Shown: positions 47,729-64,000 of the stretch, piece after piece
Position numbering within the stretch: position 1 is the first letter of the stretch
How the letters are laid out: each line of letters opens with the position of its first letter
Assembly: GCA_021324445.1 (NCBI GenBank)
Contig: JAJPJC010000293.1
Span: 1 to 64,000, forward strand
Reading direction: 5' to 3'
Length of the DNA stretch: 64,000 nt
Source of the DNA: Isosphaeraceae bacterium
Lineage (GTDB): Bacteria > Planctomycetota > Planctomycetia > Isosphaerales > Isosphaeraceae
The notes under the pieces: generated by a model
Databases searched by the model: none
What the model was told of the DNA's origin: nothing
The model's input: only the letters and a program-made list of their open reading frames with translations
Made by a program: the position numbers and the translations under genes

Positions 47729-50700
47729 TCACCGAGCCGCCGGGTCCGGGTGCGTCGTCCCGACGAAGACGTCCTCGGGCAGCTCGCCGGCCGGTCCGGC
47801 GAGCACGGCCGTGGCCTCGGCGCGGAAGCCGGCCAGTTCCTTGCTGGATTGTTCGTTGAGGCTCTTTTGCTCCCCCAGCCAGCGCAGGGCGCGGCCGAAG
47901 CAATCGCGAGCCTGGTCGCGGTGCCCCAGCCGATGATGCGCCATGGCCAGGAAGAAAAGATCGAAACCGTCGGCTTGCCCATGGCCGGCGGCCAGGCTCC
48001 GCTCCAGGGTGGCGATCGCCTCGACGTAACGACACGCACGATAGTGGACGATGCCCATCGTGTTCAGGGACATGGCTTCGTCGGGAGCCAGGGCCAGGGC
48101 GCGGCGGCCGAACGCCAGCGCGCGGTCCAGATCGCGGCCGGGCCCCGGGCCGCTGGCCAGTTCCCAGGCCCGGTTGTTGCAGCATCGGGCCAGGATCTCC
48201 CGGACCCTCGCGAAATCGGGCTGCAGCGCCAGCGCAGCCTCCAGGTCCGCAATCGCGGCCTCGAGCTGGTTCAGGTCGGCATGGAGCCCCCCGCGAATGG
48301 CTCGACAGTGCGCGTCGTTCGGCCGGAGGCGGAGGGCCTGGTCCAGGTCCTCGAGCGCCTCGCGGGAGCGATTCAGGTCGAGCAGGGCATGGGCGCGGTG
48401 ATGATACGCGTCGGCATCGTTGCGATCGTTCTGGAGCCGCGCGGTGTAGCGCTGGACCAGCGTGGCAGCGGCCTCAGTGCGGTGTTCGAGGTGCGAGGTT
48501 AGCGGTCCGTAGTCGACCCGCAGCGGGGGCAGGGGCGGCGCCGCGGGGCTGCACGGGTCGTCGCCGGAGAAGGCCGGGGCATCCCAGTCCAGGCCCAGCT
48601 CGACCAGCCGGCGGCGGATGGCGCGGAGGTCCCAGACGTGCACGGCCGGGCCGTCGTTGGTCGTGACGACCAGGCGCGAGCCATCCGGGGTGAAGCTGGC
48701 CCATTGGGCCCCGCAAAGGTCGGGACTCCGCAGTCGCGCCAGGGTGCGTCCCGTCTCGATCTCGGACAGCCAGATCACTTTTCGGGCATCCTGCAGGGCC
48801 ACCAGGCGGCTGTCGTGGGAGAAGCAAAGCGCACCGCCGTCGAACTGCCGCGCCGCGCGCCAGGTGCCGGCCGTCCAGAGCCGGCCCGGCCCGAACTGCC
48901 GCGTGAGCCATTTCCCGTCGGGGCTGAAGAGGACCTCGACCAAGCCCTCGATCGCCAGGTGGGCCACCGGCGCGCCGTCGCGGACTCGCCAGACCTGGGC
49001 GCCGGTATGCCCATGGCTGCCGGTGACCAGCCATTGGCCGTCGGGGCTGACGGCCACCGAGCGGACGTCGTCGAGCGGCCCGACCCGGAAGGCCCGCTCG
49101 GGGGTCTGGACATAGGCCGCCCCGTGGTTGGCCAGAGCCACCACCCGGCCGTCGGCGTCCTCGGCGATCCCGCAGTACCCCGGCGGGAACGACGGGAGGA
49201 GGAGCGGCGGGCCGATGCGGAATTCCCCGCGCTGCCGATCGAGCTGGATCGGCCACCGCCGCACGCCCACTGCCCCGCTGGTGAGCAAATCGCCCGACGC
49301 CTCGAACAGGAGATGCATGGCCGGTCCGATCGTCAGGAAGCCGAGCTTGAGGCCGTGGGCCAGGTCCCAGAGCGCCACGCCGCGGGTCGTACCCACGGCC
49401 AGCACCCGGCCGTCGGGCCGGATCGACGCGCGGAGATATTGAATCGGCTCGGCAGAGACGTGGGCGAACGTGCGGTATTCCAGGGCCGGCTCGACCCGAT
49501 AGGTCGTCAGCTCGTCCCCCAGGGCGACCACGAGGTGCCCGTCCTGGCTGAATTGAGGCTCGATCTCGCCGGTCATCGTCAGCGCGGGGCGTCCCAGGAT
49601 CGGGTCCCAGAGCCGCAGTCCCCCGCCCCAGCCGGTGCTGGCCAGCAAGGTGCCTGCCGGGTGGAACCCCGCGCGCAGGCCGCCGTTGATCTGGCCTTCG
49701 AGGACGGCCTTGCGGATGCCCGTAGCGGTCTCCCAGAGGGAAATCTTCCGATCCTGGCCGGTGATTGCCAGCGTGGTGCCATCTTGGCTCCAGGCGAGGG
49801 TGTCGTGGCCGGGCTGAACGATCGTCTGGACCAGCCGGCCCGTCGCTGCCTCGAGGATGCAGCAGGGGCCGTCGTTGCCGCCGCAATTGATCGCGAGCTG
49901 GACCCCATCGGGGCGGAAGACCAGGTCGCTCGGGGCCCCCTGCACCGGAACCTGCCAGCGGCGGTGGAGCTGACCCGTTGCCAGGTCATAGTCGAGGATG
50001 GCGCCATCGTCGTGCGCCAGCACGATCCTCCGGCCGTCCGGACTGAACCGTGCCGAAGTGCCCGCGACGCGGCCCGAGTCCTGGACTGCGACGGCGCGGT
50101 GGTCGATGTCCCAGACGGTCAGGTCGAAGCGGGGATGATGGCTGCTGGCCAGGTAGCGGCCGTCCGGGCTGAAGCCGAAGACGAAGATATCGCGATCGCC
50201 TCGGGCCTGGAAGCGGGCGAGCTCCTCGTCGTTGGCCACGCGGCGGACCTGGATCGTCCCATCGAGGAACCGCAGGGCATAGCGGGTCAGGGTGGGATCG
50301 AAGGCAAACAGGAGGACCCCCGGGGGCCGGTGGATGACCCGGCCGGTCGGCTCCAGGTCGGGGAGGGCCAGGCAGGCGATCGCCTCGTCGCGGAGCTCGT
50401 CGAGCTGGGCGGCGGGCAGGTGGAGACTCCGCGCGACCCCGGCTGCCTCGCGCAGGGCTGCCAGGCTGCCGTACCGCTGCCCGACCTGGTGGCTCAACTG
50501 GGTGGCCCGCGCCTGGGCCGTCAGGGCTCGGAAGAGGTTCGCGCGCGTCTCGGTCGCAGCCCGCCGGACCTGCTCGCGCTCCGCGGCGATCTCGTTGCGC
50601 TGATGGGCGATCTGGTTGCGCTGGTCGCGGAAGATCCAGGCCATCGCGGTCGAGACGAGGGCGAGGGTCACGACGGCGGCCGCGGCGGTGGCGGTGGCCG

Positions 50701-52090
50701 CGGCCAGGCCGGGGTTGCGGCGGCACCAGCGCCAGGCCTGCTCGAGGGTGCCGCTCCGCCGCGCCAGGATCGACCGGCCATCGAGCAACCGTCGCAGGTC
50801 GTCGGCGAGGGCCGCAGCGGTGGGATATCGTTGTGCGGGCTCCTTCCGCAGGCATTTCAGGCCGATGGTCTCCAGGTCGCGGGGCAGTTTGGGCCTCAGC
50901 CGCGACGGCGGCACTGGCTCGTCGGCGATCACCTGGCGGATGGTTTCCAGCGGCGACTCGGCCTTGAACGGCGGCCGGCCGGTCAACAGCTCGTAGAGGA
51001 TCGCGCCCAGGGCGTAGACGTCGGTCGCCGCCCCGATCGCCTGGTGCCGGCTGGCCGCCTGTTCGGGTGCCATGTAGCTGGGCGTGCCGAGTAACTCCCC
51101 GGTCTGGGTACGCAGCCCCTCGCCGCCCATGAGGAGCTTGGCCAGGCCGAAGTCGGTGATCTTGGGAGTGCCGCCGGCGGTCAGCAGGACGTTGGCCGGG
51201 GTCAGGTCGCGGTGCACCACGCCCTGGCCGTGCGCCGCGTGGATGGCGCGCGCCAGCACCTCCACCAGCTCGACCGCCTGCCGGGTCGGCAGCGGCGTGC
51301 CGGCCAGCGACCGGGCCAGGCTGGGCCCCTCGACCAGCTCGAGCACCAGGAACGGGGAGCCGGCGTGCTGGCTGACCTCGTAGATCTGCACGATGTTGGG
51401 GTGCTGCAACCGGGCCACCGCCTGGGCCTCGACCTGGAACCGCGCCAGGACCGCCGGGCTGGCCCGGGCCCCCGCGTGGACCATCTTCACCGCCACCGGC
51501 CGATGCAGCCGGGTCTGGAACGCCCGGTACACCACGCCCATACCCCCCGAGCCGAGGACGTCCAGGACTTCATAGCCGGGGATGGTGGGCAGCCCCTCCG
51601 AGCCGCAAGGCCCCTCGGCCTGGCGGCGAGCAAGCAAGGTGGCAGTGCTCTCGGCGCGAGTTGGGGGGATCTCGGGGTCCGCCCCCATCGCCCGGTGCAA
51701 CTGGACCTGAAGCTGCAGCGCGGCGGCATACTGCGGGAACCGCCGCAGGTACTCCTCCGCCGCCGGCTGCTCGCCCAGTTCCTCGCGGAGCAGGTACTCG
51801 GCGAAGACCAGGTCGACGGCCTGTTCGGGGTCGTCGCGCACGGTGGGAAAGGCGTCGAGATAGCGCTCGGCCGCGACCCCCTGGCCCAGCCGGTACCGCT
51901 CGGCCTGATCGACCAGCAGCACCTCGAGGAGCTGGCCCGGGTCGCGGACGCTGTCCTGCGCCAGGAAGTCCTCGAGGCGGGGCTGCTGTCCCTGGCGCCA
52001 GAGGCCCCAGAGGCGACGGGCCGGGCCGTCCCGCTCGGCGGAACTCCCCGGCTGCGTCTGCATCGGTTCGATCCGGGTCGGCTCAGCCAT
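47729..52090 (-). CDS. Ser/Thr protein kinase with WD40 and TPR repeats
   Basis: A 1,453-residue membrane-linked receptor-type kinase. N-terminal helical domain (1-165) resembles that of other planctomycete kinases (LEDFLAQDSVRDPGQLLEVL). The kinase domain is at about 173-436: glycine loop LGSGGMGVVYRAF, Lys202, HRD at 293-295, DFG 313-315, and APE 341-343. The catalytic loop is HRDLTPAN, with Thr where Lys is usual. A membrane helix is at about 466-487, a coiled segment to about 560, then WD40-type repeats with FSPDGRYLASS-like and SPDGQWLVTGSHG units to about 1180, and TPRs near 1230-1440 (AYHHRAHALLDLNRSREALE). It overlaps the sigma factor gene by eight bases. Probably senses a cell-envelope or protein ligand. 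Confidence 0.92.
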   Translation of the reverse strand: MAEPTRIEPMQTQPGSSAERDGPARRLWGLWRQGQQPRLEDFLAQDSVRDPGQLLEVLLVDQAERYRLGQGVAAERYLDAFPTVRDDPEQAVDLVFAEYLLREELGEQPAAEEYLRRFPQYAAALQLQVQLHRAMGADPEIPPTRAESTATLLARRQAEGPCGSEGLPTIPGYEVLDVLGSGGMGVVYRAFQTRLHRPVAVKMVHAGARASPAVLARFQVEAQAVARLQHPNIVQIYEVSQHAGSPFLVLELVEGPSLARSLAGTPLPTRQAVELVEVLARAIHAAHGQGVVHRDLTPANVLLTAGGTPKITDFGLAKLLMGGEGLRTQTGELLGTPSYMAPEQAASRHQAIGAATDVYALGAILYELLTGRPPFKAESPLETIRQVIADEPVPPSRLRPKLPRDLETIGLKCLRKEPAQRYPTAAALADDLRRLLDGRSILARRSGTLEQAWRWCRRNPGLAAATATAAAAVVTLALVSTAMAWIFRDQRNQIAHQRNEIAAEREQVRRAATETRANLFRALTAQARATQLSHQVGQRYGSLAALREAAGVARSLHLPAAQLDELRDEAIACLALPDLEPTGRVIHRPPGVLLFAFDPTLTRYALRFLDGTIQVRRVANDEELARFQARGDRDIFVFGFSPDGRYLASSHHPRFDLTVWDIDHRAVAVQDSGRVAGTSARFSPDGRRIVLAHDDGAILDYDLATGQLHRRWQVPVQGAPSDLVFRPDGVQLAINCGGNDGPCCILEAATGRLVQTIVQPGHDTLAWSQDGTTLAITGQDRKISLWETATGIRKAVLEGQINGGLRAGFHPAGTLLASTGWGGGLRLWDPILGRPALTMTGEIEPQFSQDGHLVVALGDELTTYRVEPALEYRTFAHVSAEPIQYLRASIRPDGRVLAVGTTRGVALWDLAHGLKLGFLTIGPAMHLLFEASGDLLTSGAVGVRRWPIQLDRQRGEFRIGPPLLLPSFPPGYCGIAEDADGRVVALANHGAAYVQTPERAFRVGPLDDVRSVAVSPDGQWLVTGSHGHTGAQVWRVRDGAPVAHLAIEGLVEVLFSPDGKWLTRQFGPGRLWTAGTWRAARQFDGGALCFSHDSRLVALQDARKVIWLSEIETGRTLARLRSPDLCGAQWASFTPDGSRLVVTTNDGPAVHVWDLRAIRRRLVELGLDWDAPAFSGDDPCSPAAPPLPPLRVDYGPLTSHLEHRTEAAATLVQRYTARLQNDRNDADAYHHRAHALLDLNRSREALEDLDQALRLRPNDAHCRAIRGGLHADLNQLEAAIADLEAALALQPDFARVREILARCCNNRAWELASGPGPGRDLDRALAFGRRALALAPDEAMSLNTMGIVHYRACRYVEAIATLERSLAAGHGQADGFDLFFLAMAHHRLGHRDQARDCFGRALRWLGEQKSLNEQSSKELAGFRAEATAVLAGPAGELPEDVFVGTTHPDPAAR

Positions 52091-52676
52091 CGCCGCTCTC
52101 CCCTTCGAGCTGCTGCTCGACGCGATCGAGGGCGCGGGCCAGTTGCTTGCGACAGGCGTCGGCCGTTCCCCCCAGCTCGGCGGCGATCTCGGCCCACTCC
52201 CAGCCCTGGGCCCGCAGGTCGGCCAGCCGCCGCTCCTCGGCCGAGAGCCGGCGGCGGTACTCCTCCAGCAGCTCGCGACCGGCGACCAGCCGGCTCGGGC
52301 TGGGAACCGCCACCGCTCGCCCCTCCAGGTAGGCCGGGTCCTGCGCCTCCAGCCGCCGATAATCGCGCCGCCCGGCGCTGTGCCGCCGCACCTGCTGGGT
52401 CAGCTTGTGCCGCGTCATGACCACCAGCAGCCGCAGCAACTGGTCGGGCTGCTCCAGGTCGTACTGACCGGCGGCGGCGCGTGCGAAGAAGCTGGCCATC
52501 ACCGACTGGCAGACATCGGTCCAGTCGAACCGGCTGGCCAGCCGCTGATCCCGCAGCCGCAGCCGCACCTCGCGACGGACCACCGGCTCATAGCGCTGGA
52601 CCAACTCGCGCGCGGCCTGATCGTCGCCGGCACGGATGCGGCGAATGAAATCTGCAAACGCGGCATCCTCAGACAT
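52083..52676 (-). CDS. ECF-type RNA polymerase sigma factor
   Basis: 197 residues. Region 2: FADFIRRIRAGDDQAARELV, then FDWTDVCQSVMASFFARAAA and LLRLLVVMTRHKLTQQVRRH, as in planctomycete ECF sigma factors. Region 4: LSAEERRLADLRAQGWEWAE, IAAELGGTADACRKQLARAL, a helix-turn-helix for -35 recognition. No anti-sigma gene is adjacent. Instead the stop codon overlaps the start of the kinase/WD40 gene, so the two are coupled, and kinase action on the factor or on its pathway is the natural inference for ECF-STK pairs of this phylum. Confidence 0.93.
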   Translation of the reverse strand: MSEDAAFADFIRRIRAGDDQAARELVQRYEPVVRREVRLRLRDQRLASRFDWTDVCQSVMASFFARAAAGQYDLEQPDQLLRLLVVMTRHKLTQQVRRHSAGRRDYRRLEAQDPAYLEGRAVAVPSPSRLVAGRELLEEYRRRLSAEERRLADLRAQGWEWAEIAAELGGTADACRKQLARALDRVEQQLEGESGDG

Positions 52677-53245: not shown

Positions 53246-55138
53246 ATGTTGCGCGATTGGTTCCGTCAACGGTTGGACCAGAAACCACGGGGGCAGGCGC
53301 GAGTTCATCGCCCCAGGCGCTCGCGTTCCCTTCGCGCCGAGCTGGATTGCCTGGAGGGCCGCGCCCTGATGGCGGCGACGAGTGCCGTCGCCTGGACGAG
53401 CGGCGGCGTGACGCATTCCGCGTTCTACGCGATCGGCCCGAATGACAACGTCGAGGTGAGCGTCGACGGCGGCAGCTTCACCAACCTGGGCGGCTACGCC
53501 AAGCAGATCAGCGCCGGCCTGGACGCCTTCAACAAGCCGGAGGTCTACGCCATCGGCGCCGACAACGCCGTCTGGCTCAACAAGGGGTCGGGCTGGGTTA
53601 GCCTGGGCGGCTACCTCAAGGAGATCAGCGCGACGGTTGAGAACACCATCTATGCCATCGGCACCGACGACAACATCTACGTCGGCCACGGGACCCCCGG
53701 GCTGGGCTGGTTCAACACGGGCCTGAAAGCCAGGCAGATCAGCGCCGGCGTCGACGGCGGCAACCCGGAGGTCTACGCCATCGGATTCAACAACAACGTC
53801 TACGCCGGCAACGGGTCGGGCGGGCCCAGCGGCTTCGCCAACTGGGGCGGCTACGCCAAGCAGATCAGCGCGACGGTCGATAGCACCGTCTATGCCATCG
53901 GCGCCGACAACGCCGTCTACAAGGACAGCGGCAGCGGCAGTGGCACCGGGTGGGTCAGCCTGGGCGGCTACGCCAAGCAGATCAGTGCCGGCATCGACGC
54001 CAGCTTCCGCCCATTTGTCCTGTCCATCGGCCTCAATGACGGCCTCTGGTCCAATCACGGGTCAGGCTGGGTCAGCTTTGGCAACACCTATGTGACGGCG
54101 GTCAGCGGGACATCGATCGCCAACTTCGGCGTCAGTCTGCCCGCCGACACGGCGTACGCCGTCGCCCAGGGGCACGGGGGCTTGCAGCACGAGGGGACGA
54201 GCTTCACCTCCCTCGGCGGCTCCGTCCAGACCCCCTCCGGTTCGGCGGCCAATAACACGAATAGCTGGGAGCCCGCCACGCGCGACACCAGCGCGATCAG
54301 TTGGGCGAGCGGCGGCGTGACGCATACGGCGCTCTACGCGATCGGCCCGAATGACAACGTGGAGGAGAGTGTCGACGGTGGCAGCTTCACCAACCTGGGT
54401 GGCTACGCCAAGCAGATCAGCGCCGGCCTCGACGCCTTCAACAAGCCGGAGGTCTACGCCATCGGCGCCGACAACGCCGTCTGGCTCAACAAGGGGTCGG
54501 GCTGGGTCAGCCTGGGCGGTTACGTCAAGGAAATCAGCGCAACGGTCAACAATGCCCTCTACGCCATCGGCACCGACGACGCCGTCTACCTGAGCTACGG
54601 GACTCCCGGGTTCGGCTTCGTCCGCCTGGGCGCCTACGCCAAGCAGATCAGTGCCGGCGCCGACTTCCTCGGCAACCATTTTGTCTTCGCCATCGGCGCG
54701 GACGACGCCGTGTACGAGAACACCGGCACGCCCAATAGCTGGATCGACCTGGGCGGTTACGCCAAGCAGATCAGCGCGGGGATGAACCACGTCGTCTATG
54801 CCATTGGCGGGGATAACGCTGTCTACGAGAACAGCGGCAGCGGGTGGGTCGATCTCGGCGGCTACGCCAAGCAGATCAGCGCCAGCGTGACCAGCGCCGC
54901 GTCGGGTTCCCTGGGCTCGTTTGTCTTCGCCATCAGTCTCAATGATGGCCTCTGGTCCAACCACGGGTCGAGCTGGGTCAGCCTGGGCGGCTACGTGACG
55001 GAGGTCAGCGCGCCGGCCGCCGGGAACTTCGGCATCAGCCTGCCCGGCGACCTGGCTTACGTCGTCGGCCAGGGGCACGCGGGCTTCCTGCACAAGGGGA
55101 CGAGCTTCGTATCGATTTCGGGTGGAACGATCGAATGA
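53246..55138 (+). CDS. Exported tectonin-like double beta-propeller protein
   Basis: 630 residues from the ATG at 53246 (AAGGAG nine bases upstream). A basic leader with ELDCLEGRALMAATSA is of the LExR type seen on exported planctomycete proteins. The rest is two halves 303 codons apart. Each half has seven repeats of about 40 residues, each opening YAIGADNAVW-like and closing GGYAKQISA-like (first half: YAIGPNDN, YAIGADNA, YAIGTDDN, YAIGFNNN, YAIGADNA, LSIGLNDG, YAVAQGHG). The count of seven suggests two tectonin/tachylectin-like propellers. Such repeats bind sugars or lipopolysaccharide in other organisms. No enzyme motif. Ligand unknown. Confidence 0.85.
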   Translation: MLRDWFRQRLDQKPRGQARVHRPRRSRSLRAELDCLEGRALMAATSAVAWTSGGVTHSAFYAIGPNDNVEVSVDGGSFTNLGGYAKQISAGLDAFNKPEVYAIGADNAVWLNKGSGWVSLGGYLKEISATVENTIYAIGTDDNIYVGHGTPGLGWFNTGLKARQISAGVDGGNPEVYAIGFNNNVYAGNGSGGPSGFANWGGYAKQISATVDSTVYAIGADNAVYKDSGSGSGTGWVSLGGYAKQISAGIDASFRPFVLSIGLNDGLWSNHGSGWVSFGNTYVTAVSGTSIANFGVSLPADTAYAVAQGHGGLQHEGTSFTSLGGSVQTPSGSAANNTNSWEPATRDTSAISWASGGVTHTALYAIGPNDNVEESVDGGSFTNLGGYAKQISAGLDAFNKPEVYAIGADNAVWLNKGSGWVSLGGYVKEISATVNNALYAIGTDDAVYLSYGTPGFGFVRLGAYAKQISAGADFLGNHFVFAIGADDAVYENTGTPNSWIDLGGYAKQISAGMNHVVYAIGGDNAVYENSGSGWVDLGGYAKQISASVTSAASGSLGSFVFAISLNDGLWSNHGSSWVSLGGYVTEVSAPAAGNFGISLPGDLAYVVGQGHAGFLHKGTSFVSISGGTIE

Positions 55139-56093: not shown

Positions 56094-58901
56094 ATGTCAG
56101 CCGAGCTGCAGGGTCCTCAGGAAGGACGTGAACGGCAAGCGCCTTCCGCGCCGCCATCGCCGCCCACGCCCGACCCGGACGCAGCCCGCGGAGACGCCTC
56201 CAGCCATGCAACTTTCAAGCAGTTCGCGTTCGACCAATCCGGCGACGACTCCCCTCCGGCGAAGGGGCGGAGGGACCGCCCGGCAGGTCCCACCAGGCGG
56301 GACGACCGGCAGGCTGCAGCCGAGAGCCGTCAGGACCGCTCGAGTCGCCGCCCTGAGCCAGACCGCCCGTCGGTCGAGGGACTCTCCCGGGCCGCGCAGT
56401 TGATGATCCAAGGCTTCGTGACGGAATGGGAGCAAGGGCAGGAGCCACAGATCGAAGACTACCTGACGGGCACCGGATCCCGCCGCGCCGCCCTGCTGGT
56501 CGAGCTGGTGCGAGCGGACTTGAAGTTCCGCCTGGAAGCGGGTCTGCCTCATGAGGTCGAATTCTATCTGAATCGCTATCCAGAGCTGGAGGATGAGGCG
56601 CGCGCCGGTCTGATCGTGCGTGACTACCAGCTGCGCCGCGATCACGGCATGGCCGTGTCGGTGAACGATTATCTCGATCGGTTCCCCCCGCTCAAGCACA
56701 TCCTGACCCCGCGCCTCGCCGCGATCTCAGCTCCCGAATCGGACCAGCCGACGACCCATTGGGAGTCGCCGCCGCCCGCCCCCAGCAACCGGGCGACCAC
56801 GACCGTGCGCCGGACACCGAGCGCTTCCTCCCTCTCAGGCGTAACCTCGCCCAGCCTGTTCGACTCTAAGTTTGAGAAGATCGAGATGATCGGCAAAGGC
56901 GGGATGGGTGAAGTCTGGCGCGTCCGGCACCGGGCCCTCGGCGAAGACCGCGCCGTGAAGTTCATTCACCCGCACCACGCCCACAACGACGAATTGAGGA
57001 AGCGACTCCACCGCGAGGCTCAGGCGATGGCCCGCGTGCACCACCCCCACGCTGTCCGGGTCTACGACGTCTGCATGGAAGACCCGCCGTACATCGAGAT
57101 GGAGTACCTTCAGGGACAGCCTCTGAACAAGCGACTCAAGCCCAAGGTTCCCCTGCCGCTCAAACAAACGGCGGAGATCCTCAAACAACTTTGTGACGTC
57201 CTCCAGAGTGCCCATGACAGCCGGATTATCCACCGCGATCTCAAGCCGTCGAACCTGATGTTGATCGACACCGGCAACCCCGAGGAGATCGACCTCAAGG
57301 TCCTGGATTTTGGTCTCGCCAAGTTCCTCCTCGGCACCCAGGCCCAGGAACTCACCGCAACCGGCGTTCCCATGGGCACCCCGGTGTACATGAGCCCCGA
57401 GCAGTTCCAGGGCGCGTCGCGTGTGGACGCGCGGGCTGATATTTATTCGGTCGGGGTGATCCTCTACGAGTTATTGACCGGCTGCCGCCCCTTCGAGTCA
57501 TCGCATTTCCAGCTCTTCAACGACATCCTGCACACCCCCGCTCCCTCGTTCCAGGAGCGGAACCCCCACGCGGAGGTCAAGCCGGAGATCGAGAAACTGG
57601 TCCTGGGCTGCCTGGAGAAAGACCCGAGGCGGCGGCCGGCCTCGGCCCGCGCGCTGGCCCAGGAGTTCCTTCGGTTGGCCGCACCGGAGATCGGATCGCC
57701 CCCACCCGTGGTCGTGCCTTCCAAGGTCGATCGGCGCTGGATCCTCGCCGCGTTCGCGGGACTCGGACTGGGTGGCGTCGTGCTGGCCAGGTGGCCTCGT
57801 TCCTCCCCGGAGCTCCTCAATCCGAGCCCTTCCCAACGGCCGACAGAAGGCGTCCCCGAGGAATTGTCGATCGAAGCCTTCCCCGCCGAACTGAAGGTCC
57901 AGGCCGGCGAGAGCGGCTCGATCTACATCCGCGTCTCTCCCGATCATTTCGCCTCCACGACCGAAGTGAGGGTGGGCGACGGCCTCCCCAAGGAGATTCG
58001 CGTCGAACCCCAGCAGCCGACCGAGGGGCCTCAGCGACAGTTCAGCGTTCAGATCCCCGACCCCAACACCGTTCCTCAGAGTCGCTCGCTGGTGTTCATC
58101 GCTACCGACGGGCCGACGACCAAGACCTTGCCCGTCCGGTTGGTCATCCAAGATCCGCCCGTCGCCACCTTGCCTGACCACTGGAGGCGGCTCGAGACAT
58201 CACGCCTCGTCGACATTGGCGACAAGACGTATTATCCAACGGTCATCGAACGCACGATCGACAGAGTCAAGCAGCCCGTCGTCGCCCGCCTGGTCAACAA
58301 GGAGGGGACCGGCTCGCGCGTCGCGTTCTACATCATGCGGGACAAGGTCTGGGTCGAGCTCTTCGCGGCCTTCGCCCGGGAGAACCCCGAGAAGGTCAAG
58401 GGATCCCGGTGGAACAAGGACCGTAATCCGCGCTGGCCGGTGCTGGGCGCCACCGGGGTGGAGGCCCAGGCATTCGCCGAGTGGCTCGGGGGACGGGGTC
58501 AAGGATTCTTGCCCAGCCGCGAGGAATGGGACCTGGCAGCCGGGAAGGACGAGCAGGATCGCGGGGCGAGCACCTACCCGCACGGGTGGAAGCCGACGGA
58601 TCGGACGGGGACGATGATCGCCGTGAACGTCCTCGACGAGAATCCACGTCCAGTCGGTGCCGCCCGTCTCGACGTCAGCCCCTACGGTTGTCGCGATATG
58701 CTGGGCAATGGCTGGGAATGGACTCGCCTGGTGGACGGTCGCAACGACGTCGATCTGCGTGCCGAGACCTACAGGGCCCCGGAACCCTTCAACTTCGAGA
58801 AGATCCAGCAGGACACCGTGCCCGTCGAGCGCTTCGACAGACCGAACCCCGAGGTCGGTTTCCGCGTGGTGATCGAACTCGAGCGGAAGCGCCCGAATTG
58901 A
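56094..58901 (+). CDS. Ser/Thr protein kinase fused to a C-terminal FGE/C-lectin-like domain
   Basis: 935 residues from the ATG at 56094 (GGGGAA upstream). An Arg/Pro/Asp-rich N-terminus precedes a helical domain (95-210). The kinase domain is at about 261-530: IGKGGMGEVW, Lys288, IIHRDLKPSNLML with HRD at 380-382, DFGLAK from 405, and YMSPEQF. A membrane helix (WILAAFAGLGLGGVVLA) lies at about 549-565. Outside it are an Ig-like part (590-690) and a formylglycine-generating-enzyme-like domain (about 715-930) with FLPSREEWDLAAG, SPYGCRDMLGNGWEWTRLV and closing NPEVGFRVVIEL. The catalytic cysteine pair of true FGE is not present, so this is probably a binding domain. Followed 22 bases later by the WD40/caspase-like gene. 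Confidence 0.9.
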   Translation: MSAELQGPQEGRERQAPSAPPSPPTPDPDAARGDASSHATFKQFAFDQSGDDSPPAKGRRDRPAGPTRRDDRQAAAESRQDRSSRRPEPDRPSVEGLSRAAQLMIQGFVTEWEQGQEPQIEDYLTGTGSRRAALLVELVRADLKFRLEAGLPHEVEFYLNRYPELEDEARAGLIVRDYQLRRDHGMAVSVNDYLDRFPPLKHILTPRLAAISAPESDQPTTHWESPPPAPSNRATTTVRRTPSASSLSGVTSPSLFDSKFEKIEMIGKGGMGEVWRVRHRALGEDRAVKFIHPHHAHNDELRKRLHREAQAMARVHHPHAVRVYDVCMEDPPYIEMEYLQGQPLNKRLKPKVPLPLKQTAEILKQLCDVLQSAHDSRIIHRDLKPSNLMLIDTGNPEEIDLKVLDFGLAKFLLGTQAQELTATGVPMGTPVYMSPEQFQGASRVDARADIYSVGVILYELLTGCRPFESSHFQLFNDILHTPAPSFQERNPHAEVKPEIEKLVLGCLEKDPRRRPASARALAQEFLRLAAPEIGSPPPVVVPSKVDRRWILAAFAGLGLGGVVLARWPRSSPELLNPSPSQRPTEGVPEELSIEAFPAELKVQAGESGSIYIRVSPDHFASTTEVRVGDGLPKEIRVEPQQPTEGPQRQFSVQIPDPNTVPQSRSLVFIATDGPTTKTLPVRLVIQDPPVATLPDHWRRLETSRLVDIGDKTYYPTVIERTIDRVKQPVVARLVNKEGTGSRVAFYIMRDKVWVELFAAFARENPEKVKGSRWNKDRNPRWPVLGATGVEAQAFAEWLGGRGQGFLPSREEWDLAAGKDEQDRGASTYPHGWKPTDRTGTMIAVNVLDENPRPVGAARLDVSPYGCRDMLGNGWEWTRLVDGRNDVDLRAETYRAPEPFNFEKIQQDTVPVERFDRPNPEVGFRVVIELERKRPN

Positions 58902-58923
58902 GGCTCCCAGGGAGGCCGTCACG

Positions 58924-61900
58924 ATGAGGCCGCGTCGTCTGCTGATGGTTCCGCTGCTGGCCGTCCTGGCCGGGTCCGCCTGGGCGCAGGAGGCCGCCCT
59001 GGCGGTCCCGCCCGGCGAGAAGGATCCGGTGCTCCGGCTGGAAGGTCGCGGCCCGCTGAGCCCGGTCCTGGGCGTGGCTTTCGGCCCGGGCGGCGGCACG
59101 CTCTACGAGGCCGGCTGGGACAAGGTCGTCCGGGTGTGGCGGCGCGACGCGCGGACCGGACAGTTCTCCCTCGATCCGTCCGCCACCCTGCGCATTCCGA
59201 TCGGGCCCGGTGATCAAGGCGTGCTGCAGGCGCTGGCGGTCTCGGCCGATGGGGCCTGGCTGGCGGTCGGTGGCAATGCGGTCCTCCCCGAGAATGCCGG
59301 CTTCCGACAGCTCGGCCTGGCCTTGCCCCGGCAGAGCGTCGCCGATCCGGAGGCGCAGGGGGTCGTCTACCTCTTCGACCTGCGGGCCAATCCCCCGAGC
59401 TGCCGCCAGCTCCGCGGGCACCGGGGCACGGTGACGGCACTGGCCTTCGCCACCATCCCCCAGGGTCGCCAACCCGTTCTCGTCTCCGCCGGCGAGCAAC
59501 GCAACCCTCAGGCGCCGATGCGGCAGGGGCTGGTGCTCCGCGCCTGGGACGTGGCCGCGGGAATCCCGTTGGGTCAGGCTGAGGGCGGCGACTTCCAGGG
59601 GAAATTGCCGTGGCTGGCGGCCTGGTCCGTGCCGCCCGACCATCGCCGCATCCGCGCGGCCGCGGCGTGGACCAACTCCTTCTTCCTGGTCTGGGACGTG
59701 GGCGTCGCACCACCGCAGCCGGTCCGCGACCCCCACAGTCGAGGCCAAGACCTGGGCCAGAGCACCGTCCTCAGCTATCTACCCGACCGGGATCTGCTCC
59801 TGACCGGTCATTTCGGGGTACCACCCCAGGGGGAATTGCCCGAAGGATACCTCGACACCTGGGTCCCGGCCGCGCCGCCGGTCCCGAACCAGTCGGCCGT
59901 CGTGTCGTGGGCGGCCGGGCGACCCATTCCAGCGGACGTCAAGGGCGTGCCCGTGGCCCAGGCGCTCGTCTCATCCCGGCCGGGGGGGCCACGCGACCTG
60001 CTGGCGGTGGTCCTTCAGTCGTGGACCCGCCAAGATGGTCCGGGTGCGATGGTGGAGTACAGGCTCCAGCTCCTCGACCTCGCCCCCGCGCGGTTCGGCT
60101 CCGTCCGGGTGCAGGCGGCCCTCTGGAATGGCCCCAGGGTCCTACCCGTTATCGCATCCCCGCCGGATGGCAGTTGGTTGGCCATCGTCGGCAACCCCGA
60201 GAACGAGATCCTCGTCCAGTCCGTGGCCGACCTGCTCCAGGACCCGGCTCGCTTCCAGAAGCTCCACGGCGTGGGGGAGCCGATCCAGGCTGCGACCTTC
60301 GTGCGGAACGGAGCGGGTGACTGGGGCCTCCGGATCCGCCGCACGCCCCAGGCGGGCCCGGACGACCTCGTCCTTGACTTGACGAACCGGCGGATCTCAC
60401 CCTCGGCGGCCGGTTGGATGACGGCGCAAGCAGGATCCGATGACTGGCAAACCATCCTCCGCCGACCCTACGCCGCGCCGGGCGGGTCGCTCTACCCGTG
60501 GTACTTATGGATTTATGAGCGCGAGAATGTGATAGGCCCGGGGGTCTGCATCCGACCCGATCGCCCGTCCGCCAGCCCGACGGACGTCCAGGTGACGGCC
60601 CATGCCCTGCTACCCCCCGGCCGCGCACCCGTGCCCATCGCCGCGATCGCCGCGGTCGAACCCGGGGTCGGGCCGACGCTCGCGCTCTATAACGGCAGGA
60701 CGGGGGAGCGGTTCCGGCAGCTCTCCAGCCACACCGGGACGATCCGGAGCCTCGCCTTCTCCCAGGATGGACGATTCCTCGTCTCGGCAGCCGACGACCG
60801 GACGGCCTGCGTCTGGAGCCTGACCGACCTCGACCGGATCCTCCAGAAGCGCGGGGCCTTGCCGGGTCTCGTCCTGACCAGGAGCGACAATCGGTACGTC
60901 GTGGCCGACATCCAGAGCGACAGCCCTTACCGACAGGGAGTCGACCTGCGGGTGGGGGACGTCATCGAGGGATACGTTGAGGGTCAAGGACCGATGCACA
61001 ACCTCAGCTCGGCGCTCGAGGTTCATTTCACGGCGGCGACCCGGCTGCCGGGCCAGACCTTGTCCCTCCGCCGGCGCCGCGACGGCCAGGGCTCGCAAGC
61101 CATCGAGCTGAAGCTGGCCCAGGCGATCGACGGGCGCATGCCGCTCCTGACGCTGTTCCTGGCACGGGAGGGGCCGGGGATGCCGGTCGAGTGGCTCGCC
61201 TGGAATCCCTTCGGACCCTACGACTCGAGCGGGCCGGGCATTGCCTCGCTCTTCGGCTGGCACTTCAATGCGCCAGAGCGACCCGCGCTGCCCGCCCGGT
61301 TCGCCCTGGCCACAAGCTACCCGCAATTCCGTCGCCCGGGGCTGCTCCGCGACCTGATCCGCGAGGGCCAGTACCAACCGCCTCCGCCCGAGCCGCCCCT
61401 CAGATCGACCGACCTGCAACTCTTGCTGGATCCCCTCGGCGAGCCCCGGGGTGATCTGCTCCTGGTGCGGGAGCCGCCGGCAGTCCTGAACCTGGTGCTC
61501 GATGACCCGGAGTTCGCCCAGCGGATCGCATCGGTCCGCTGGCGACTCGATCAGGGCGAGTTCACGCCGATGGAGGCCGACGAGCAGTCCTGGACCGCGG
61601 ACCTCTCCCGCATCCCCTGGGATCGCAAAACCCGCGAATTGACGGTCGAGGTGCGGTCCCGAGGATCGACCCCGCAGACGATCCTCAAGAGCCAGAAAGT
61701 CTGCTACATCCCCAAGGCGCCGCGCGTGCGCCCCCAGATCCCCCAGGGCGTCACCGCCTTCAGCGTCGATCAACGCCAGTTGCCCTTCGCGGTGGATGTT
61801 GAGCCGGCGGTGGGCGAGAAGGCCCGGGTTGTTCTCATTCGGCGGCACGGGGACGAGCCCTTGCACCGGGAGGAGTACGGAGCGGACGCGGCCCCGGGGC

Positions 61901-64000
61901 TGCTGCGCATCGCTACGGTGCTCGATCTCAAGCCGGGCGACACTGCGATCGACCTGGAGGCCGTCAACGAGGGAGCGCGCGACGACTTCCGCGACGAGGA
62001 GACGACACGGTTCGGCCCCCTGACGGTGCACTACAGCCCCAGGCCCGTGAAGCTCCCCAGCATCGAGCTCGAGGCGCTGGTGCTCCTCCCGGAGGGTGAG
62101 CGTGCCCCCTCCAGGAAGATCCCGATCCGGGGGATGGAGACCCTCATCGTCGAGTCCACGCCCCGGGTGCGTGTTCTCGGGAGGATCACCGCCGAGGACA
62201 ATCTCCTTCGCGTGGAGCGGCAGACAGCCGGCAAGGACAAGGACTGGAAGGCCCTCGACGGCTCCAGGGCGGGCCTGGGGAAGACGTTCGCGATCCAGGA
62301 GGAGATCGACCTGGTCCCAGACCACCAGACCATCGTCTTCCGCGCCCGGGCCGGCAACGTCGACGCGGAGGCGACGGTGTCCAGGGGGCTGACCATCGCG
62401 TATCATCCCGACCTCCCCGTGCTGGACCCGCTCGTGGCCGATCCTGCCGGCCCGATCGTCCGGTTCGGGACGGGAGGGAGCCAATCGGATCCGACGGTCC
62501 GGCTGTCGGCCGCGATCAACGGCGCGCCCGAGCGGATTGGCCGGGCCGAGATCCTGCTCAATGATCGGCCGCTCCGCGAGCCGCTGACCATCGACCGCAA
62601 GGGCAAGCGGCTCCTGGGCTCGGTCCCGTTGTCTCGCGGACCCAATCGAATCGGTGTCCGCTTGAGCAACCGCTGGCATACCACGGACTTTGGGCCGATC
62701 TTCGTGGAGTACCGTCGTCCGCCTCAGGTCGAGCCGTTGGTGGTCACGATGCGGGCCGGCCGCCCGTTGGCCCAGCTCTCGGCCCGGGTCGCGTCGCTGA
62801 CCACCCTGACGCGCGCCGAGGTCGAAGTCGTGCATCAACCCGGAACTCTGCCGGCTGCCCACACCTACTTGGCGCACCGGGAGCCGCGTCCGCGGGATCT
62901 CTGGGCCGTTTCCGCCGAGGTCCCGCTCGAGCAGGGTGCCAACCAGATCATCCTCCGAACCTGGAACGAAGACGGGGCGTCTCCGGAGCAGCGGGTGCTG
63001 CGAGTTTATGAGAAACCGGTCGAGCGGAAGCCGGACGTGATCGTGCTGACGCCGGAGAAGCTCAACGTGGAGCAGCCCAGAGTCGTTCTCCGGTTCCGGG
63101 TCCGTTCGGAGAGCCCCCTGACGCGCGTGGAGCTGAGCAGCGAGCGGTCGTCGGCCGCCCCGCGTTCACTGGCGAAGTTCCCGGTCCAACAGCTCGCGCG
63201 CGGGGCCGATGGCCGCTTCGAGCTCCGCGCGGATCCGACCATCCTCCTGGAGTCCGGCCCCAACTCGTTCAAGATCGAGGCTCAGAACGCTGGGGGTGTG
63301 TCGTCGGTCGACCTGCTCTTCACCTACACCCCGCCGCCCCTGCACGTGGTCCTCGACGGCGTGGAACCAGAGGCCGGAGGCGAACCCCAGGTGCCCCGGG
63401 CGCGGGTGGAAGGCCCCCCCAGCCTCGCCAGGCCCCTGCCCAGCAGCACCATCGTGCTCCGGGGCCGGGTCATCTGGCCCGATACCGATGCCATGCGCGC
63501 CCAGGGCAATCCCCGCCTCCAGGTCTGGGTCAACGGCTTTCCCCATGTGGTGGCCGCACTGGCGCCCCCCGTCCCGGGCTCGCCGGTGCGTGCCTTCCGG
63601 GCCCGGGTCTTGTTGAGCCGGTTGGAGAACAACGAGATCGATCTGAGGCTGCGTGGTGCGCCGCTGGATGTCCTGGGCGACCGCAAGTTCCTGGCCTCCT
63701 GCCGCAAGGTCGAGGCGAACTGGCGGCTCCACCTGCTGGTCATGGGCATCGGCGCGGTGGACCAGGACGAGTTGCGGGCTCGTGCCATCGCGGCCCTCAA
63801 GGGCCGGCCGGTCGACGCCGAAGAGACCACCTTCCAGACCCCGGCGTTTCCGACCGCGACACTTTACGGCCGCGGCCGCGCCGTCATCAATCGACCCTGG
63901 ATGATCGGCCGGCTCAACCAGATCAGGAAGGCGATCGCCATGGGCCCCATCCCCTCGAACGACGTGGTGATTCTCTACTACCAAGGGGGAGAGGTCATCG
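58924..64000 (+). CDS. Exported WD40 protein entering a caspase-like domain (3' end outside window)
   Basis: An uninterrupted frame of 1,692 codons from the ATG at 58924 (GGGAGG eight bases upstream) to the window end, with no stop. A signal peptide (LLMVPLLAVLAGSAWAQ) is followed by WD40-type repeats: SPVLGVAFGPGGGTLYEAGW with VVRVW, GHRGTVTALAFATIPQ, and SSHTGTIRSLAFSQDGRFLV with CVWSLTD near residue 640. Then a PDZ-like segment (VVADIQSDSPYRQGVDLRVG) and about 850 residues of beta-rich Ig-like domains. From about 1,600 the sequence reads WRLHLLVMGIGAVDQDELRA and PSNDVVILYYQGGEVI, the strand pattern of caspase/C14 proteins. The expected His-Gly is QGGE here. Operon partner of the kinase-FGE gene. 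Confidence 0.8.
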   Translation, partial: MRPRRLLMVPLLAVLAGSAWAQEAALAVPPGEKDPVLRLEGRGPLSPVLGVAFGPGGGTLYEAGWDKVVRVWRRDARTGQFSLDPSATLRIPIGPGDQGVLQALAVSADGAWLAVGGNAVLPENAGFRQLGLALPRQSVADPEAQGVVYLFDLRANPPSCRQLRGHRGTVTALAFATIPQGRQPVLVSAGEQRNPQAPMRQGLVLRAWDVAAGIPLGQAEGGDFQGKLPWLAAWSVPPDHRRIRAAAAWTNSFFLVWDVGVAPPQPVRDPHSRGQDLGQSTVLSYLPDRDLLLTGHFGVPPQGELPEGYLDTWVPAAPPVPNQSAVVSWAAGRPIPADVKGVPVAQALVSSRPGGPRDLLAVVLQSWTRQDGPGAMVEYRLQLLDLAPARFGSVRVQAALWNGPRVLPVIASPPDGSWLAIVGNPENEILVQSVADLLQDPARFQKLHGVGEPIQAATFVRNGAGDWGLRIRRTPQAGPDDLVLDLTNRRISPSAAGWMTAQAGSDDWQTILRRPYAAPGGSLYPWYLWIYERENVIGPGVCIRPDRPSASPTDVQVTAHALLPPGRAPVPIAAIAAVEPGVGPTLALYNGRTGERFRQLSSHTGTIRSLAFSQDGRFLVSAADDRTACVWSLTDLDRILQKRGALPGLVLTRSDNRYVVADIQSDSPYRQGVDLRVGDVIEGYVEGQGPMHNLSSALEVHFTAATRLPGQTLSLRRRRDGQGSQAIELKLAQAIDGRMPLLTLFLAREGPGMPVEWLAWNPFGPYDSSGPGIASLFGWHFNAPERPALPARFALATSYPQFRRPGLLRDLIREGQYQPPPPEPPLRSTDLQLLLDPLGEPRGDLLLVREPPAVLNLVLDDPEFAQRIASVRWRLDQGEFTPMEADEQSWTADLSRIPWDRKTRELTVEVRSRGSTPQTILKSQKVCYIPKAPRVRPQIPQGVTAFSVDQRQLPFAVDVEPAVGEKARVVLIRRHGDEPLHREEYGADAAPGLLRIATVLDLKPGDTAIDLEAVNEGARDDFRDEETTRFGPLTVHYSPRPVKLPSIELEALVLLPEGERAPSRKIPIRGMETLIVESTPRVRVLGRITAEDNLLRVERQTAGKDKDWKALDGSRAGLGKTFAIQEEIDLVPDHQTIVFRARAGNVDAEATVSRGLTIAYHPDLPVLDPLVADPAGPIVRFGTGGSQSDPTVRLSAAINGAPERIGRAEILLNDRPLREPLTIDRKGKRLLGSVPLSRGPNRIGVRLSNRWHTTDFGPIFVEYRRPPQVEPLVVTMRAGRPLAQLSARVASLTTLTRAEVEVVHQPGTLPAAHTYLAHREPRPRDLWAVSAEVPLEQGANQIILRTWNEDGASPEQRVLRVYEKPVERKPDVIVLTPEKLNVEQPRVVLRFRVRSESPLTRVELSSERSSAAPRSLAKFPVQQLARGADGRFELRADPTILLESGPNSFKIEAQNAGGVSSVDLLFTYTPPPLHVVLDGVEPEAGGEPQVPRARVEGPPSLARPLPSSTIVLRGRVIWPDTDAMRAQGNPRLQVWVNGFPHVVAALAPPVPGSPVRAFRARVLLSRLENNEIDLRLRGAPLDVLGDRKFLASCRKVEANWRLHLLVMGIGAVDQDELRARAIAALKGRPVDAEETTFQTPAFPTATLYGRGRAVINRPWMIGRLNQIRKAIAMGPIPSNDVVILYYQGGEVI

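Follow-up and report, generated by a model that had tools for sequence, protein, structure and literature searches.

Why does a gene for a receptor kinase stand directly ahead of a gene for a giant exported protein in an Isosphaeraceae bacterium, and do the two products work together? The pair lies at the end of the window, the whole stretch of 64,000 nucleotides analysed, which forms the first part of a contig of 106,035 bases in a genome of 10.8 Mb. As originally predicted, the two genes are on the same strand and separated by 22 bases, and both frames are as described, gene 2 being open over 1,692 aa at the window edge. Read past position 64000 on the contig, the frame of gene 2 runs through a caspase-fold domain and stops at 64428. 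The features of the pair are as follows.

56094..58901, + strand: gene 1, Ser/Thr kinase-TM-Ig-like-FGE receptor, 935 aa (ORF, Pfam, 4-way alignment)
56871..57668, + strand: gene 1 kinase domain, residues 260-525 (Pfam, alignment)
57738..57794, + strand: gene 1 probable single TM helix, residues 549-567 (sequence; helices of relatives at the equivalent place)
57861..58163, + strand: gene 1 putative Ig-like ectodomain segment, ~residues 590-690 (from sequence, no Pfam match)
58326..58739, + strand: gene 1 FGE / C-type-lectin-like domain, degenerate, residues 745-882 (Pfam)
58909..58915, + strand: ribosome-binding-like AGGGAGG ahead of the gene 2 ATG, in the 22-base gap
58924..64428, + strand, beyond the window edge at 64000: gene 2, exported WD40/PDZ-like/Ig-like/pseudocaspase giant, 1,834 aa (ORF, contig sequence)
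58924..58986, + strand: gene 2 signal peptide MRPRRLLMVPLLAVLAGSAWA (sequence)
59020..60828, + strand: gene 2 WD40 beta-propeller region, ~residues 33-635 (Pfam; low-confidence model and Foldseek)
60841..61128, + strand: gene 2 weak PDZ-like segment, ~residues 640-735 (PDZ_2 E 0.12; secondary structure)
61192..61269, + strand: gene 2 WxxWxPxGxYDxS...GW motif, common to shorter WD40-caspase proteins
61531..63693, + strand: gene 2 putative run of Ig-like segments, ~residues 870-1590 (sequence, alignment)
63721..64428 (window part to 64000), + strand: gene 2 pseudocaspase domain, residues 1600-1834, His and Cys absent

Gene 1 had been predicted to encode a Ser/Thr kinase with a membrane helix and an external FGE domain, and it proved to match the Pfam families Pkinase (1.3e-52) and FGE-sulfatase (1.6e-15). 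The kinase residues Lys289, HRD (380-382) and DFG (405-407) are invariant in the four orthologues first aligned. The helix at ~549-567 is borderline in the window copy (~1.59 Kyte-Doolittle by hand, missed by a scan with a threshold of 1.6); most relatives have a clear single helix at the equivalent position in the hydropathy scan. As the positively charged KVDRR is located just N-terminal of the helix, the kinase would be inside and the FGE domain outside. Formylglycine-generating enzyme has its active-site cysteine pair at the C-terminal end. The FGE match in gene 1 spans only model positions 37-194 of 255 and the FGE region contains a single Cys; a role as sulfatase-modifying enzyme was rejected on the basis of this degenerate match, which leaves out the C-terminal part, and of the lone Cys. 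Gene 1 has what characterizes the planctomycete FGE receptor kinases, namely a Pkinase domain, a single TM segment (here the borderline one) and an outside FGE domain. Kinases with an outside FGE (sulfatase-modifying-factor) domain are common in planctomycetes, FGE being the third most abundant accessory domain of these kinases according to PMC11032199. Like the TM Ser/Thr kinases with a periplasmic FGE domain described there, gene 1 has the kinase inside, one helix and FGE outside; however, the passages on the FGE domain in that paper mention no partner gene, whereas here the ectodomain family is tied to a giant, and the kinase is exchangeable for TIR.

Upstream of the pair, at 53246-55138, a gene encodes a 630-aa tectonin-repeat protein with an export-like N-terminus (Pfam Tectonin 7e-21). 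An ECF sigma factor gene overlaps a kinase-WD40-TPR gene on the - strand (47729-52676), and this kinase shares the N-terminal helical segment of gene 1.

Gene 2 had been described as an exported giant with WD40, PDZ-like and Ig-like parts. Export and the propellers were borne out by the signal peptide and by a Pfam WD40 match (6e-16), and an AlphaFold model of residues 1-825, of low confidence (pLDDT 50), has double WD40 propellers as its matches in Foldseek (E 1e-14). The PDZ part is hinted at by the PDZ_2 hit, and the Ig-like segments were read from the sequence without a confirming profile.

Gene 2 was also said to enter a caspase-like fold at the window edge. Profile-profile comparison shows the final ~235 residues to be a homologue of the WD40-caspases' caspase domain: aligning 31 giant C-terminal domains by hhalign with the C-terminal domains of six WD40-caspases carrying DxCHSG gave a score of 60.5 (probability 95, E 1.9e-8), while the controls scored 20.4 (best of 150 column-permuted) and 17.8 (reversed), and an unrelated profile gave a probability of 0.1%. 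The position of the domain matches that in the shorter WD40-caspases, and the WD40 part and the W..W.P.G.YD motif are common to both. Because of this homology, and because the domain occupies the equivalent end of an equivalent architecture, the assignment of the gene 2 C-terminus to caspase family C14, as a fold, holds. Neither Pfam nor a sequence search of the PDB gave a match for the domain, Peptidase_C14 is matched by none of the giant C-terminal domains, and an AlphaFold model from a 3-row alignment, with a pLDDT of 58 and without a match in Foldseek, was of too low quality to bear the fold out by structure.

The fold of the original prediction was retained, with one correction: the positions of the catalytic His (GHG) and Cys (DACHSG) are occupied by other residues in 33/33 relatives read. 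In the window giant, the GHG position reads YYQGGE and the D-A-C-H-S-G position LLDVTRAP; the hydrophobic strands and the LD around the lost dyad are kept in the giants. The missing dyad argues that the end of gene 2 is a pseudocaspase and not a protease, and a dead caspase fold is well supported. That the receptor might release or activate the giant as a working protease of caspase type is hardly credible: such a reading could appeal to the homology of the fold and to the existence of relatives with intact dyads, but the empty His and Cys positions led us to reject an active caspase or orthocaspase.

Dyad loss is known from caspase homologues elsewhere. In one survey, 8.6% of bacterial orthocaspases were without the dyad (PMC6426788), and in an earlier one it was kept in only 64% of planctomycete sequences (PMC3501461). 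The giants resemble the pseudo-orthocaspases (PMC6426788) in a caspase p20-like fold that has no His-Cys dyad. Pseudo-orthocaspases are defined by the missing dyad together with a p20 fold that a sequence profile recognises; the giants are homologous to intact domains, yet have no Peptidase_C14 match. The known pseudo-orthocaspases come mainly from Alphaproteobacteria and Cyanobacteria and carry Tyr/Ser replacements, whereas the giants are planctomycete, too diverged for Pfam, and their replacement is not fixed. Gene 2 likewise resembles the WD40-containing prokaryotic caspase homologues or orthocaspases (PMC3501461), which are exported WD40 proteins with a W..W.P.G.YD motif and a C-terminal caspase fold, but differs from them by its far longer Ig-like run, its PDZ-like segment, the absence of the dyad and the adjoining FGE receptor. 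The WD40 proteins of L007, L016, L020, L024, L028 and L029 bear half-degenerate caspase domains in their C-terminal 270 aa; with the His retained and DGxH in the Cys region, they form a series of intermediates from intact to dead.

Is the pairing of the two genes conserved? The survey used a profile of the Ig and C-terminal part of the giant (A3) as query, and long matches were counted. Relatives of the giant are present in 36 of 310 genomes: 2/45 in its own family (Isosphaeraceae), 14/95 in a second family and 20/170 in a third. The full-length giant was found in 5/392 sampled genomes of the phylum; carriers include a Fimbriiglobus MAG and an uncultured Schlesneria. The expectation that the genes would be neighbours in relatives was confirmed, as an FGE receptor is immediately adjacent to the giant in 23 of the 34 loci with usable flanks, across three families. 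Fifteen of these pairs are same-strand (7 to 228 bases apart), 7 divergent and 1 convergent, the latter (L165) being assigned by eye as a kinase-TM-ectodomain protein ending GFSLVIP. Two loci hold partial pairs, with one gene between (L173) or a kinase fragment at the contig end (L178). In the other nine (L155, L156, L157, L162, L175, L177, L180, L182 and L056/L184) no FGE receptor adjoins the giant, whose partner may be encoded at a distance or may not be needed. In a tree of the giants, loci with and without the pair are scattered across the clades, and the sister Isosphaeraceae loci L002 and L188 differ in orientation, one being same-strand and the other divergent. At the two loci of genome G548 where the receptor is missing (L155:4078-5616, L156:4364-5749), both giants adjoin one family of YHS/HEAT-type proteins, and the barrel-like gene beside both differs from the usual one.

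With ~21 FGE genes in its own genome, chance adjacency to the giant is expected at ~0.5%. The binomial p for 23/34 is 1e-44 at this FGE density and still 2e-26 if 100 kinases per genome are taken as the background; both ignore kinship, and since the loci are related they serve as a guide only. Chance adjacency was rejected on this test. The neighbourhood could also be a coincidence arising from a general habit rather than a specific partnership, given that kinases often adjoin WD40 genes in planctomycetes (PMC5587647), which raises the background for pairing, and that nine loci are unpaired. However, the neighbour is specifically an FGE receptor of one ectodomain family, adjacency is kept despite changes in orientation, and the p values are far under any plausible background; we regard coincidence as very improbable. 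That the pairing of giant and receptor is real is well supported.

The kinship of the ectodomains follows the pairing. The best matches of the Ig+FGE ectodomain of the window receptor are the partners at other loci, those of other families included (3.6e-29, 1.9e-27, 1.8e-25 and onwards), while among the remaining FGE proteins encoded in its genome the best match reaches only 7e-7. In two genomes of one genus, a TIR-TM-FGE protein replaces the kinase-TM-FGE protein beside the giant (L158:4601-6166, L172:3629-5194). It matches TIR_2 (5e-21) and FGE (1e-9), with a helix between the two, and the FGE part of both proteins still matches the window ectodomain (5e-7, 1e-6). Judged from these sequences, the cytosolic half is exchangeable, with the ectodomain and the neighbouring giant left in place.

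A third gene, encoding 492 aa here, is located downstream of the pair at window coordinates 64771-66249 (L002:9772-11250). Its family occurs within 5 kb of the giant in nine loci, this one included, and has one other relative in the same genome. Nameless in Pfam and NCBIfam, the family has aromatic C-terminal residues and the look of a beta-barrel, and the gene probably encodes an outer-membrane barrel. The original description was of a pair of genes; the pair stands, and to it are added this frequent, outer-membrane-like third gene and the replacement of the kinase by TIR. While reading the flanks we also noticed, 7 kb downstream of the module, a MoxR-like AAA gene with a vWA-domain gene behind it (L002:16461-19001, window ~71460-74000), probably an unrelated common pair. 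MoxR and vWA, together with VMAP, make up the core of the ternary conflict systems of PMC7159879, but around the other loci no such frames were noticed.

Do FGE receptors stand beside any WD40-caspase? Around five shorter WD40-caspases with an intact DxCHSG, none has an adjoining FGE receptor (0/5, roughly 6 kb of flank read), and the general association was rejected for these, although a second type of locus exists in Isosphaeraceae. There, a kinase-FGE gene adjoins a gene for an exported protein of ~1,450-1,600 aa with caspase folds at both ends of its propellers, the C-terminal fold retaining His and Cys (GHT, DACQ). This type is complete in L214, L216, L218, L220, L223, L224 and L232, and both the kinase-FGE and the double-caspase gene are present on contig 132 of the genome studied here (L244:3167-10580); in L229 and L231 the receptor is absent from the stretch read. 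The second type is thus like the window locus in its kinase-FGE gene adjoining an exported WD40 protein with caspase folds, but differs in having two such folds, one with His and Cys, and in usually facing a WD40-pseudocaspase gene. There is thus more than one kind of locus in which an FGE receptor is paired with an exported WD40/caspase-fold protein.

How might the two proteins work together? Architecture, conserved adjacency, absence of the dyad, exchange of the cytosolic domain and specific ectodomain kinship are supported. On these we build a model to which we give about even credence: the gene pair, often with the barrel gene, would form an envelope-spanning signalling module of a receptor and a non-enzymatic giant scaffold. 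The receptor would hold an enzyme domain in the cytosol (a kinase here, TIR in two relatives), cross the membrane by one helix and expose its Ig+FGE ectodomain in the periplasm. As the giant has a signal peptide and the FGE domain is outside, the two would share a compartment, the giant being exported to the side of the ectodomain as a scaffold or co-receptor. Its WD40 propellers and Ig repeats may bind other envelope or foreign molecules, its dead caspase fold may offer a binding surface, and the FGE ectodomain would dock on it. The cytosolic kinase or TIR would then be switched on or off when the giant changes, be it through a bound ligand, damage or the state of the outer membrane. Of the originally predicted partnership in ligand sensing, the genetic association is well supported; physical binding, the ligand, the direction in which the signal runs, the part played by the barrel and the purpose of the module are what we infer.

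For this purpose, immune recognition and envelope monitoring are the main rivals, and both are compatible with the receptor/scaffold mechanism. In the first, the giant would display or bind foreign or kin molecules, and the receptor would respond through its kinase or, with consumption of NAD, through its TIR domain, perhaps to the point of cell death. FGE/C-lectin sensors linked to kinase, TIR and caspase-like, often inactive, domains have been proposed in conflict systems of multicellular bacteria (PMC7159879, PMC10907252). The sensor is common to both; here, by contrast, a single-pass receptor stands with an exported partner, and neither a diversity-generating repeat nor a STAND core was found. 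The interchangeable TIR-FGE and kinase-FGE proteins, the WxxxE-type glutamate (PWEEPE) retained in the TIR domain and the patchy distribution of the giant fit an immune role. Yet PADLOC assigns neither the giant nor the outer-membrane protein to a defence family; its hits to the kinase are generic and confined to the kinase domain, and those to TIR are weak and partial. A diversifying repeat would require the FGE 3' end to recur, but in the stretches searched (the window, L002 and L036; of the contig, all but the last ~13 kb) it has no second copy; no STAND NTPase or nuclease was noticed among the neighbours, and the caspase is dead. We hold an immune or self/non-self purpose to be unlikely.

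The giant could instead be a structural scaffold, periplasmic or associated with the outer membrane, whose assembly state is monitored by the receptor. Such envelope homeostasis agrees with the outer-membrane-like barrel gene at 9 loci, with an exported giant built of propellers and Ig repeats, and with a single-pass receptor, but we consider it doubtful as the patchiness of the giant (three families) speaks against a housekeeping role and TIR would be an unusual output for homeostasis. A bolder reading, somewhat less likely than not, is a planctomycete envelope recognition system in which the FGE domain reads the state of the exported pseudocaspase giant and passes it to a swappable cytosolic kinase or TIR, with the outer-membrane barrel as third part. 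The recurrence of the pair in three planctomycete families points to an undescribed envelope signalling module; its parts are of known kinds, and no account of such a pair or triad was found in the open-licence papers searched.

WD40 proteins, caspase homologues and receptor kinases are unusually numerous in planctomycetes, mostly without known partners or signals. Through the conserved pair, a single family of receptors is linked to a single exported partner, and it becomes testable what a sensor of the FGE type perceives and for what reason a caspase fold persists although its active site is missing. Where TIR takes the place of the kinase, envelope sensing is joined to a domain familiar from immune systems. 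If the bolder reading is true, this would be a bacterial receptor/pseudoenzyme module in which eukaryote-like immune and death signalling domains work outside the cytosol.
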